A stretch of DNA of 13,356 bases, taken from contig CAKTZN010000027.1 of the NCBI GenBank assembly GCA_934635545.1, forward strand, positions 1 through 13,356. The letters are read 5' to 3'. The DNA is from an uncultured Oscillospiraceae bacterium (GTDB lineage Bacteria; Bacillota; Clostridia; Oscillospirales; Oscillospiraceae). Shown here in pieces: positions 1,303 through 6,200 of the stretch. The first letter of the stretch is position 1. Each line of letters opens with the position of its first letter. Under the pieces are notes generated by a model, which saw only the letters and a list, made by a program, of their open reading frames with translations, had not been told where the DNA came from and did no database searches. The position numbers and the translations under genes are program-made.

Positions 1303-1450
1303 AAATAACAGGACGGCGTGCCGGTCTTTCCGGCAGCGGAATGGGGTGAGATGCCCCGCGAGAAGGTCACTGTGATGCCCCCGTGTCAAAGCGGCGGGAT
1401 AAGTCAGATACGTCATGCGCCGCCCCTGGGCTTTCGCCATTCCCGAAGCC
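1303..1450 (+). promoter_or_regulatory. Cobalamin (B12) riboswitch aptamer, orphan
   Basis: Conserved cobalamin-riboswitch blocks appear in order: GGAA (1338-1341), the stem-loop GGGTGAGATGCCC (1344-1356), GTCACTGTGA (1366-1375), and AAGTCAGATAC (1401-1411). The closing helix P1 can be drawn as CAGG-a-CGGCG (1309-1318) with CGCCG-cc-CCTG (1418-1428). After it comes hairpin GGCTTT/GAAGCC (1429-1434 with 1445-1450), whose loop CGCCATTCCC is where the kissing loop L13 is expected. In this family bound cobalamin stabilises the kissing loop and switches the downstream platform. No rightward coding region follows, which is unusual. The class assignment is by motif recognition, not a covariance-model search. 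Confidence 0.85.
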
Positions 1451-1460
1451 GAAGCGAAAA

Positions 1461-1505
1461 GTGTGTATCGACGCACGGTCTGCTTTGGCCGTGCGTTTTC
1501 TTTTT
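1461..1505 (+). terminator. Riboswitch expression platform: antiterminator and intrinsic terminator
   Basis: The terminator stem ACGCACGG (1471-1478) pairs with CCGTGCGT (1489-1496), extendable by two inner pairs, and is followed by TTTTCTTTTT (1496-1505). An alternative hairpin, GTGTGT (1461-1466) with ACGCAC (1471-1476) around the tetraloop ATCG, uses the same 5' arm and excludes the terminator. This pair of exclusive folds is the expected switch. Ligand binding in B12 riboswitches usually favours termination. Confidence 0.8.
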
Positions 1506-1628
1506 GCAAGCCGAACGCGGCAACGCGCCGCAGCTTTCCCATAGAACGGCAGGAGGGGTTTGCCGGCCCCTCCTGCCCATCCTCACATTTTACTCTCTTA
1601 CATTTTCTACCCTTTCAATATCCCCCCC
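1506..1628 (+). other. Gene-free tail downstream of the riboswitch, with a 10-bp hairpin
   Basis: No ATG occurs on the plus strand here, and no open frame resembles a protein. The main structure is a perfect hairpin, GCAGGAGGGG (1549-1558) with CCCCTCCTGC (1567-1576), loop TTTGCCGG. It has no T-run on either strand, so it is not a terminator. The 5' arm contains an SD-like AGGAGG (1551-1556), but no proper start codon sits downstream at useful spacing. It may be the body of a regulated non-coding RNA or the remnant of a lost gene. Confidence 0.5.
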
Positions 1629-1677
1629 AAAAGCAGCATGGCCTCCCGATTTTTGACCGGGAGGCCATGCTGTTTTC
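1629..1677. terminator. Bidirectional terminator between the riboswitch RNA and yibE/F
   Basis: CAGCATGGCCTCCCG (1634-1648) pairs perfectly with CGGGAGGCCATGCTG (1658-1672), giving a 15-bp stem and 9-nt loop. It is flanked by AAAA (1629-1632) and TTTT (1674-1677), so it works on both strands. It ends the leftward yibE/F transcript 21 nt past the stop and would stop riboswitch read-through. Confidence 0.9.
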
Positions 1678-2992: not shown

Positions 2993-3021
2993 TGGCTTTT
3001 GCCGGAAGGATATGGTACAAT
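2993..3021 (+). promoter_or_regulatory. Extended -10 promoter of the large surface-protein gene
   Basis: TACAAT (3016-3021) is preceded by TGG, an extended -10 element. The -35 position (2993-2998, TGGCTT) is poor, so this promoter may depend on the extended -10 or an activator. The predicted start is near 3028, giving an untranslated leader of about 210 nt. Confidence 0.5.
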
Positions 3022-3062
3022 GTAGCCATCAACTCGAAAGGTCTGCTCCGGTTTTTGGCACT

Positions 3063-3129
3063 ATCCACGATTTGGGACAAGTTTCGCCTGAGATTCGGCA
3101 CACAGCAAACCCCTCCTGAATTTGTGGAT
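3063..3129 (+). promoter_or_regulatory. Structured leader RNA, candidate riboswitch of unknown class
   Basis: Four helices nest without conflict: ATCCACGA (3063-3070) with TTGTGGAT (3122-3129, one G-U), GGG (3074-3076) with CCC (3111-3113), GTTT (3081-3084) with AAAC (3107-3110), and GCC (3086-3088) with GGC (3097-3099), closing an 8-nt loop. Only 6 nt separate the outer helix from an intrinsic terminator at 3136-3166. I could not match it to the conserved cores of cobalamin, TPP, purine, SAM, lysine, glycine, c-di-GMP, ydaO, ZTP, guanidine, fluoride or T-box elements. Inner helices are short, so the fold is a hypothesis. Confidence 0.4.
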
Positions 3130-3135
3130 CGCCGT

Positions 3136-3166
3136 CCGCCTGCCCTGTGCAGGTGGGGCGGTTTTT
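3136..3166 (+). terminator. Leader terminator (attenuator) upstream of the large gene
   Basis: CCGCC (3136-3140) pairs with GGCGG (3157-3161), with inner CCT/AGG pairs (3144-3146 with 3151-3153), followed directly by TTTTT (3162-3166). It lies between the promoter and the start codon, 73 nt before the ATG, so transcription of the gene must pass it. This implies conditional read-through. Confidence 0.65.
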
Positions 3167-3239: not shown

Positions 3240-6200
3240 ATGAAAGGACGAACAAGCAAGCGGATTCTCTCCGCGCTGCTGTCACTGGTAATGCTGCTGT
3301 CGCTGCTGCCGGTGGCCGCATTCGCCACGGAGACGGCAACAACGGCGACATGGACGAAAGTCACGTCCGCCCCGGAAGATTGGTCGGGCACTTACCTGAT
3401 CGTTTCCGAGGGTGATAAACTTATTTTGGATGGCTCTCGCGACAAGCTGGATGGCGAGGGCAATAAGATTGACGTGACTATTGCCGACGGCACAATCACT
3501 GGCGACTATGCCAAATATGCCTTTACCATCGCTTCGATGGAAGGCGGCTATTCAATCCAGTCTGCCAGCGGAAAGTATATTTCCGGCACGGCAAATAAGA
3601 ACGCATTAAATAGCAATGCTGCCGCTGTACTGAATACCATTGCAATGAGCGACGGCAATGTGATCATTACCAGCAACAATACAACACTGCAATACAACAA
3701 TGCAGCCACAAACGGTACTCGTTTCCGCTACTACAAGAGCCAGAATCAGCAGCCCATCGCTCTTTATGCGCTCACCGCCACCGGCGGCAGCGAAACAGAG
3801 ACCGTAGCCGCCCCCACCGCCAATTATCCGAACGGCAGCGATCTGGAGATCGGCACTCAGATTGAGTTCACCTGCGAAACCGAGGGTGCCACCATCCAGT
3901 ATCACACCGGCGACGGCAACTGGGTGAAATACACCGCCCCCATCCCGGTGAACGCCAATACAGCTTTCACTGTGAAAGCTGTCAGCGCCACTGGCGCTGA
4001 GTCCGATGCGGCCACCTTCACCTACACCGCCTACAAGCTGGTGGACAAGTACGTCAAGGCGGACACCATTGCCACCGGCGACAAGGTGATCATCTACAAC
4101 ACGGGCAATACCAGCGCTATCAGTGCTACCATGAAGGGCAGCTACTACCTGACCCCTGTGACCGCCACCGTGGCCGAAAATGCTTTGACCGCTGATGACA
4201 TGAGCGCCATCGTCTGGACGGTCACCAAGAACGACGACGGCACCTATACCTTCGCGCAGGGTGAAAATACCCTGACCATGGGCACCAACAACGGCAAGTT
4301 CAATCTGAACCTGACCAGTGACGGCGCCACCAACTGGGATCTGGAAGCCATCGGCACAGGCGGCGCGTACACCATGTCCGGCAACGGTGTCACCGGCCAA
4401 TACGGCAAGGTGTACATCGAGTACTACGCAAAGTACACCGAGTTCTCCGCCTACTGCACCAGCACAGATCGTCTGTCCGAAAAAGACTTCGGCATGACGT
4501 TCTTCAAGCTGACCCAGGAGAAGCAGCCCGTGGACGGCGAGACCCCTGCCGGGACCGTGGCCGCCCCCACCGCGTCCCCCGCTGCCGGTGAGATCGACAA
4601 GGGCACCAAGGTCACCTTCTCCTGCGCCACCACAGATGCGACGATCCTCTATAAGACCACCGGCGATTACACGACCTACACTGGCCCCATCACGGTCAAT
4701 GAGGACACCACCTTCACCGTCAAGGCCACCAAGGACGGCATGAACCCCAGTGCCGAGGTCACCTTCATCTACACCGTGAAGGCCGAGGCCGGTGACAAGT
4801 ATGTCCTGGCGGACACCATCGACACCGGCGACCAGGTCGTGATCTATTACCCCAAAGACAAGAAGATCATGACCACGGAGGGCTACACATACACCAATAA
4901 AAACACCGGCAAATCCAAGGATGAAATGGTAGCCGCCGGCGCCACCGTGACCGGCAGCGAATTGACCACCGCAGCCACCAATGCCGCCGTGCTGACCGTC
5001 ACCAAGGACGCCAACGGCAAGTATACCTTCACCACCGCCGACGGCAGGCACCTTTATATGGACGGCACTCATGTGCGTCTGGTGAATACTGCCGACGCCA
5101 ACACCCTGTTCCAGTTGGAACCCGCCACCAACGGCTGGTTCATCAAAGCCGATACGGCGCAGGTCAGCAATAAGGCCCAGTACCTGGAATACTTCGGTGG
5201 CTACTTCACCGTATTCGGTATGAGCAGCAATACGGCGATCTACACCTTCCAGTTCTACAAGCTGGCCCGGGCCACCGACCCGGTCTCCGGCCTGCAGGAC
5301 GGCGATAAGGTCGCCATCTACAACGATGCCAACGCCATCGCCATCGGCACCGCCGCTTCCGGCAGCAACCTGACCGGCGTGGCCACCACGCTGGACGGTG
5401 AGCTGGTAAAGTCTGCCGCCGGTATGGCAGAATTCACCGTTCGCGTCAACGATCAGAATCAGTTGACCTTCGTCTGCGACGGCAAGTATCTGACGTCTGC
5501 CCAGACTGGCAAGGGTCTGTCTCTGGCGGCAGCCGAGTCCGACTACAGCCTGTGGGTGGCCGAAGCGAATGGCAGCGGCTTCTATCTGAAGAATGTCAAT
5601 GCCCAGTTTAAGACCAATGCGCAGTACCTTCAGGTGTTCAACTCCAACTTCTCTACCTTCGGTCTCGGCACCGGCGGTGACAACTATACCGTGACCTTCC
5701 GCAAGATCGCCGCCGACACCCCCGACACCGGCGATCTGCCCAAGGCTGGCGACCAGGTCGTCATCTACAACGCCAACGCCAATGCCGCGCTGGCCGCCCA
5801 GGACAAAAACCCCGACAGCCCCTCCATCACCAAGTCCGGCGCTGTCGAGCTCACTGACGACGGCAAGCTCGCCAAGGGCAACGGCGCCGCCGTGTTCACC
5901 GTGGAGCAGAGCGGCCAGTATCTGCGCTTCAAGAACGAGACCTACGGCTACCTGTGCGCCAACGGCACCGGCAACAACGCCTTCTACAGCCAGGCCGTCA
6001 GCGAGGACGCCGACTGGCTGGTACGCACCTGCTCCGGCGGCGTGGGCGGCTTCGAGATGGAGAGCCGTACCGCCAAGTACAAGGGCTACAGCCAGTGGCT
6101 GGAGTATTACAGCGACAGCTTCAAGGTGTATAGCATGGACAAATCCAAGGTCACGGATTACACCATCTACTCCTTCCAGTTCCTGCCCGTGGCGGACGGC

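Follow-up and report, generated by a model that had tools for sequence, protein, structure and literature searches.

An orphan riboswitch of a divergent corrinoid subfamily, possibly gating a non-coding small RNA, in an uncultured Oscillospiraceae bacterium

To our knowledge, very few cases of small RNAs gated by a riboswitch are known. In EutX of Enterococcus, a B12 riboswitch stands ahead of a non-coding RNA. Rli55 and AspocR were described in Listeria (PMC8079631, in excerpt). In the excerpted model of repression by a corrinoid riboswitch, L5 and L13 form a kissing contact, and an antiterminator can form between the 3' side of P13 and the terminator (PMC10653944). Transcobalamin-like surface proteins of Gram-positive bacteria, with SLBB and toroid domains, were predicted to scavenge B12 (PMC1796856, 2007, in excerpt).

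The locus analysed here lies in a 13,356-nt stretch of DNA from an uncultured Oscillospiraceae bacterium (the window, to which coordinates refer unless a locus is named), and was compared with these systems using a covariance model, R1, built with a hand-set structure from homologues plus the window copy. The RNA resembles the cobalamin family RF00174 (clan CL00101) in block order, in the GGTG hairpin, the CACTGT block, the B12-box-like AAGTCAG and the P13 hairpin with its loop, in control by a terminator, and in the corrinoid genes downstream of relatives' R1 copies. It differs in L5, which is GGU in 46/47 variant rows of the R1 alignment (two weak canonical rows set aside) against the consensus UCCCG in the excerpted source (PMC10653944). 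That consensus with its matching L13 was not found in the window, where L5 is GGU and L13 carries CCC; P6 is short, and the box reads AAGTCAGATACG, where canonical copies in relatives have the AGTCAGGAAACCTGC type. The repression logic of P13, antiterminator and terminator and the short kissing contact are shared with the metE riboswitch of Priestia megaterium (PMC10653944, in excerpt), but the metE switch controls an mRNA and has a canonical L5. Like Rli55 and EutX, the locus combines a B12-type riboswitch ahead of a non-coding RNA with a short and a long transcript, but the window lacks the ANTAR dual hairpin and no eut gene was found among the window proteins scanned. AspocR and Rli39 of Listeria likewise have a B12 riboswitch before an RNA that faces a convergent gene; in the window, by contrast, a terminator-like hairpin precedes that gene.

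The window locus

An extended -10, sigma-70-type promoter (TTGCAA-17-TGC-TATATT) was found by promoter scan at 1261-1289 on the + strand. The original prediction had assigned the locus a promoter of its own at this position, and the scan agreed: it is the sole promoter-like site within 1200-1750 (mean in shuffles 0.2). Transcription is expected to start near 1296, and hexamers resembling those of the window promoter precede several other copies, as judged by eye. The aptamer (1306-1428, + strand) was assigned to the R1 subfamily from the R1 match, alignment and covariation; the match itself covers 1306-1467 at 129.8 bits, with the window copy among the 16 model sequences. Its parts are the outer helix, the GGAA block, the GGGGTGAGATGCCCC hairpin, L5 GGT (1365-1367), CACTGTGA and the B12-box-like sequence at 1401-1412. 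These conserved core blocks stand in the predicted order and align with canonical cobalamin riboswitches of relatives, homologous blocks having been seen in five canonical copies that a loose pattern caught.

P13 (1429-1450, + strand; GGCTTT/GAAGCC, with the L13 loop CGCCATTCCC at 1435-1444) is helix 8 of the R1 structure, in which both sides change in 3/3 modelled pairs. Because L13 has CCC in place of the usual ACC, as in the gene-linked copy L126, the L5-L13 contact of the window copy may be weak. A pairing of GGCGG with the GCC of L13, proposed by RNAalifold, was set aside and is unused in the structure. The switch terminator (1470-1505, + strand) was found by two terminator scans and consists of an 11-pair stem at 1470-1497 followed by the T-rich tail TTCTTTTT; terminator-like sites numbered 2 by scan, with a mean of 0.9 in shuffles. 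It is overlapped by a hairpin at 1461-1476 and the two are mutually exclusive, which bears out the competing hairpins predicted for 1461-1505. Complementarity further points to an antiterminator (1448-1489, + strand), in which the 3' side of P13, GCCGAAGC (1448-1455), would pair with GCTTTGGC (1482-1489). On direct reading the two give 8 pairs, one of them G-U, and GCTTTGGC falls within the terminator's loop and 3' side, not its 5' side. This is the same type of design as in the P. megaterium metE model (PMC10653944, in excerpt). The anatomy predicts termination, and thus repression, in the presence of corrinoid, and corrinoid is the probable ligand from homology and gene linkage.

Behind the terminator, the start-codon scan of 1506-1628 returned no ATG and no GTG, with one TTG at 1560, and no gene was seen between 1506 and 1634. 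The region closes with a strong bidirectional terminator-like hairpin (1634-1677), placed where both the readthrough RNA and the leftward unit of yibE end. From direct reading, its stem-loop (1634-1672) is flanked by T's on both strands; it was picked up by our looser scans and is omitted by a stricter one with a loop limit of 8. No rightward gene begins before this hairpin. The leftward yibE occupies 1698-2873, and the next rightward gene starts at 3240 with 2264 codons, so that the predicted lack of an ATG ahead of a bidirectional terminator and of any rightward gene before 3240 was found as described. The closest yibE relative belongs to an uncultured Oscillibacter MAG (76%). By eye, promoter-like words and a terminator-like hairpin were also seen in a leader at 3017-3166, ahead of the 2264-aa secreted protein at 3240; this leader had no match in 32 genomes, a blank that is uninformative for the tool used.

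The R1 subfamily and its genes

A significant match to RF00174 had been set as a test of the original prediction and was not obtained, either at the gathering score in the window or at E <= 10 on 1150-1750. RF00174 was dropped as proof of identity, and comparison with homologues was used instead. The RNA region was searched as DNA against 32 genomes of the relative's genus, which gave strong matches in several of them (under 1e-10, eight places in G009 and three in G008). The 18 copies retrieved and the window copy make 19 sequences, 16 of which were aligned after L132, L134 and L135 had been dropped as near-duplicates; the invariant columns include GGAA, GGTCACTGTGA and the GCC of L13. R1 matched 127/400 family genomes at E <= 1e-3, a lower bound given strict filters and 7 candidates scored per genome; the 400 are an even sample of a larger group.

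Over 61 sources (the window plus 60 loci), R1 gave 49 matches. Double-sided changes were present in 24/31 pairs of the 49 rows, and in 9/9 pairs of the outer helix. The covariation score was 0.533, against 0.146 in shuffled and at most 0.123 in slid alignments, although the alignment was fitted to the R1 model and leans toward the structure. R1 thus has a common covarying structure, by which a corrinoid riboswitch in the wide sense is recognized. The L13 pattern GCCnnnACC was found in 28/49 rows, a rough pattern that loses rows by position.

The two models scarcely overlap. Among the loci recruited by RF00174 (L081-L095, n = 15; 14 above its cut-off), R1 matched two, weakly (33.7 and 22.9 bits). 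RF00174 at its gathering score recovered 0 R1 places in 20 loci (L162-L181), with two matches adjoining R1 places (L162 1701-1853, L170 190-420); at E <= 0.5 it recovered one R1 place in 19 loci (L175, 25.7 bits, below the 31.5 cut-off). When seven genomes were searched at E <= 10, six of which carry variant copies, none of the retrieved variant copies appeared among the matches listed (124 candidates scored from genomes that contained more); the nearest match, a fragment of 8 bits, lies immediately downstream of the copy in G028. As judged from alignment and covariation, the window RNA is a structured riboswitch of a divergent corrinoid subfamily and not a member of RF00174 by score, a status that the original prediction did not anticipate. 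The subfamily is unlisted in Rfam 15, and no description of it, or of the type A RNA treated below, was found among the open-licence papers listed. R1 and RF00174 aptamers were also observed in tandem on one strand (L162 1501-1656 and 1701-1853; L170 460-615 and 190-420). At L087 (G001 C26 13853-14079), a weak RF00174 match of 21.4 bits carries cobalamin-like words while R1 is silent, and it is perhaps a further divergent copy.

By eye, 14/18 genus-level copies face a long rightward frame with a secreted-looking product, which begins 132-648 nt past the listed aptamer start; the others have an interrupted frame (L135), no rightward gene (L138, L140) or a recombinase-like frame (L142). Thirteen of the secreted proteins were scanned. 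DUF4430, which we take to be the SLBB domain of the transcobalamin-like surface proteins, was found in nine at E <= 0.01 (one below its cut-off), and the toroid domain in four, all just below cut-off. Many gene-linked R1 copies are followed by secreted proteins of this kind, with DUF4430 or toroid domains; they are the counterparts of the SLBB/toroid proteins of the excerpted report (PMC1796856), but no such gene is present in the window. Genes that by eye look like cobU and cobS precede L128 and L138. First genes at 26/60 family-level loci were compared with Pfam, the remaining 34 being judged by frame and composition only, and comprised 9 of corrinoid or cobalt type (Peripla_BP_2, CbiQ, CbiD, three CbiK and three TP_methylase, one of these truncated), 10 with DUF4430, toroid or SLH domains, and 7 others. 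The genes after R1 copies thus include cbiD, cbiF-type, cbiK, cbiQ and BtuF-like genes as well as those for secreted DUF4430/toroid/SLH proteins, and linkage to corrinoid synthesis or uptake genes is a property of the subfamily that the window copy lacks. At L203 (1922-3805) and L217 (3966-5819), the gene behind the riboswitch joins a CbiK cobalt chelatase domain to S-layer homology domains, which suggests a surface-anchored chelatase-like protein. Tyrosine-recombinase-like genes (names by eye) were seen upstream of L126 and L131 and downstream of L142; such neighbours may be relevant to the high copy number within genomes.

Orphan copies and the RNAs behind the switch

Orphan R1 copies are recurrent and not single. 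In at least 7/60 family-level loci (L191, L196, L201, L218, L220, L233, L238), a rough count by eye, the neighbouring gene is convergent and no rightward gene is near. Several orphans besides the window copy have a second terminator-like hairpin before the convergent gene, which varies between loci (names by eye).

A conserved RNA, type A, follows the riboswitch terminator in some relatives, several of the orphans included. It has the layout GTTTCC, hairpin, GGAAAC, unpaired pyrimidine-rich linker and second hairpin, and is carried by 13/60 loci, two in part only (L217, L218), as judged by eye. A model, R2, was built from 11 of the 13 and gave 17 places in 15/400 whole genomes; with strict filters and 10 candidates scored per genome, these counts are lower bounds, and 11 of the places are training sequences and six are new. 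Each of the 17 has an R1 riboswitch 53-101 nt ahead of it on the same strand. The apical hexaloop is AUGGGG in 12/17 copies, and the loop of the second hairpin is UCUCAAGACC-like and alike in several copies by eye. Three folded type A RNAs had z-scores of -4.0 to -5.7, and stem covariation was 0.321 against 0.135 shuffled in an alignment fitted to the model. A terminator-like hairpin was found past the linker in 13/17 by a loose scan, some of the 13 being weak; L261 and L269 lack one behind the linker, with L269 at a contig end, as do L265 (at L203) and L270 (at L215). Because the L203 and L215 copies precede genes, that of L203 being the CbiK-SLH gene, with no such hairpin in between, type A may also work as a leader element. 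At L265/L275 (G065 C30 5468-6233), riboswitch, type A, riboswitch and type A were observed in succession, followed by the CbiK-SLH gene. R2 had no match in the window, which shares the type A layout and not its sequence.

The readthrough part of the window RNA begins with another element, type B (1506-1577, + strand), delineated by word comparison and fold as CAAGCCGA, a hairpin, CTTTCCCATA and a 13-bp hairpin (1548-1577), then ATCCTC. Type B-like words stand behind the terminator at the gene-linked copies L128, L133 and L137, where they form the 5' UTR of surface-protein genes, and at the orphan L138. Two tandem copies occur in L250, a 2653-base locus without an R1 copy, and the first part occurs in L253, whose searched stretch has no R1 copy; the type B copy there is about 2.1 kb downstream of the G032 R1 copy. 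The 40-nt start of type B is identical in L250 and L253, which come from two genomes, and in both the element is preceded by a small gene whose leader holds a terminator-like hairpin (by eye).

Next comes a G-free C/U-rich stretch of 57 nt (1576-1632, + strand), identified by run scan and simulations and unpaired in a predicted fold whose input ended at 1655. It is the longest G-free run in the window (runner-up 25), and this length was reached in 0/300 whole-window and 1/5000 local order-1 simulations. The fold of the readthrough RNA gave a z-score of -2.4. In 400 genomes it returned only fragments of 19-46 nt at E 3e-4 or worse, and it is not conserved. Synteny was followed through yibE and through lysR. 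The 80 yibE loci held no R1-like RNA by pattern or blastn. Five close lysR orthologues (77-79%) were found in 32 genomes, with an R1 RNA behind lysR only in G032, where a tyrosine-recombinase-like frame comes after it; at E <= 1e-135 the 400-genome family sample gave only two lysR orthologues.

Readings of the window RNA and what they imply

Our tentative preference, held at somewhat under even confidence, is that the window carries a working corrinoid transcriptional riboswitch of the divergent subfamily that gates a non-coding small RNA. With corrinoid bound, the L5-L13 contact would keep P13 closed, the terminator at 1470-1505 would form, and transcription would stop at a dead-end product of about 210 nt. 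Without corrinoid, the 3' side of P13 would pair with 1482-1489, the terminator would fail, and RNA polymerase would extend the transcript as far as the 1634-1677 hairpin, to about 380 nt. The 3' part of this longer RNA, made of a hairpin, the G-free strand and the terminator, would be the small regulatory RNA in corrinoid shortage, acting most likely by base-pairing to G-rich sites in mRNAs, ribosome-binding sites for example. The small-RNA reading is favoured by the window layout and the type A precedent; against it stand the unconserved readthrough RNA, the blank R2 search, the presence of type B in gene UTRs, the missing ACC in L13, the lysR synteny result and the possible role of type A as a leader. 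We place it slightly ahead of the view that the locus is a remnant, the riboswitch and 5' UTR of a lost surface-protein gene, still transcribed with no product of consequence. Loss of the gene, the alternative named in the original prediction, is a serious contender of somewhat lower probability, because the type B element is shared with the UTRs at L128, L133 and L137. Within the clade, homologous RNAs are followed by large secreted proteins, L138, from another genome, is truncated in the same way (riboswitch and element, then a convergent gene), and decay is seen elsewhere at L209, where 42 residues of TP_methylase run into an unrelated dehydrogenase. Yet promoter, aptamer, P13, antiterminator and terminator all look intact in the window, a G-free strand of this length is improbable by chance, and orphans recur.

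The remaining explanations carry little weight. Readthrough in corrinoid shortage might enter yibE on the opposite strand and silence it, as AspocR does with pocR in the excerpted Listeria report (PMC8079631); a convergent gene lies directly downstream here and, by eye, in at least seven of the 60 family-level loci, but antisense control is improbable given the strong hairpin at 1634-1677, similar hairpins at several other orphans and convergent genes that are not constant across loci. We know of no link between YibE and corrinoids. An overlooked short peptide is less credible still: + strand frames are open across the region and a TTG is available, but neither ATG nor GTG lies in 1506-1628, and no ribosome-binding site with a start codon was seen. 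The original prediction had pointed to EutX and Rli55, in which the RNA sequesters an ANTAR antiterminator protein. The logic is the same, the lengths are similar (Rli55 measures about 200 nt when terminated and about 450 nt at full length; PMC8079631, in excerpt), and the type A hexaloop fits A-N-N-G-N-N. However, the window has no pair of hexaloop hairpins; the sole one in 1303-1680 (1462-1477) lies at the switch terminator, outside the readthrough part, and is at chance level, about 0.5 being expected from the window rate (18 on the + strand). ANTAR proteins were found in 8/16 related genomes and in just 3/10 type-A genomes among the 16. Sequestration is accordingly the least probable of these readings, and that part of the prediction found no support, whereas a riboswitch-controlled non-coding RNA stands as a serious reading, given the conserved RNA behind the same riboswitch in relatives.

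Since R1 occurs in 127/400 genomes and RF00174 recovered none of its places in 20 loci, annotation of the B12 regulons in these gut bacteria is probably incomplete. The link of R1 to DUF4430 and toroid proteins supports the B12-capture prediction of 2007 (PMC1796856, in excerpt) and gives a direct handle for testing it. A recurrent, conserved riboswitch-gated RNA would make corrinoid-dependent RNA regulation testable in commensals. It is conceivable, though on balance doubtful, that in gut Oscillospiraceae R1 controls B12 genes, transcobalamin-like surface proteins and also a group of small RNAs produced only when corrinoid is short, with type A as one conserved family and the window RNA as another, lineage-specific one. 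If true, such RNAs would allow cells to economize on corrinoid in the way that RyhB does for iron.
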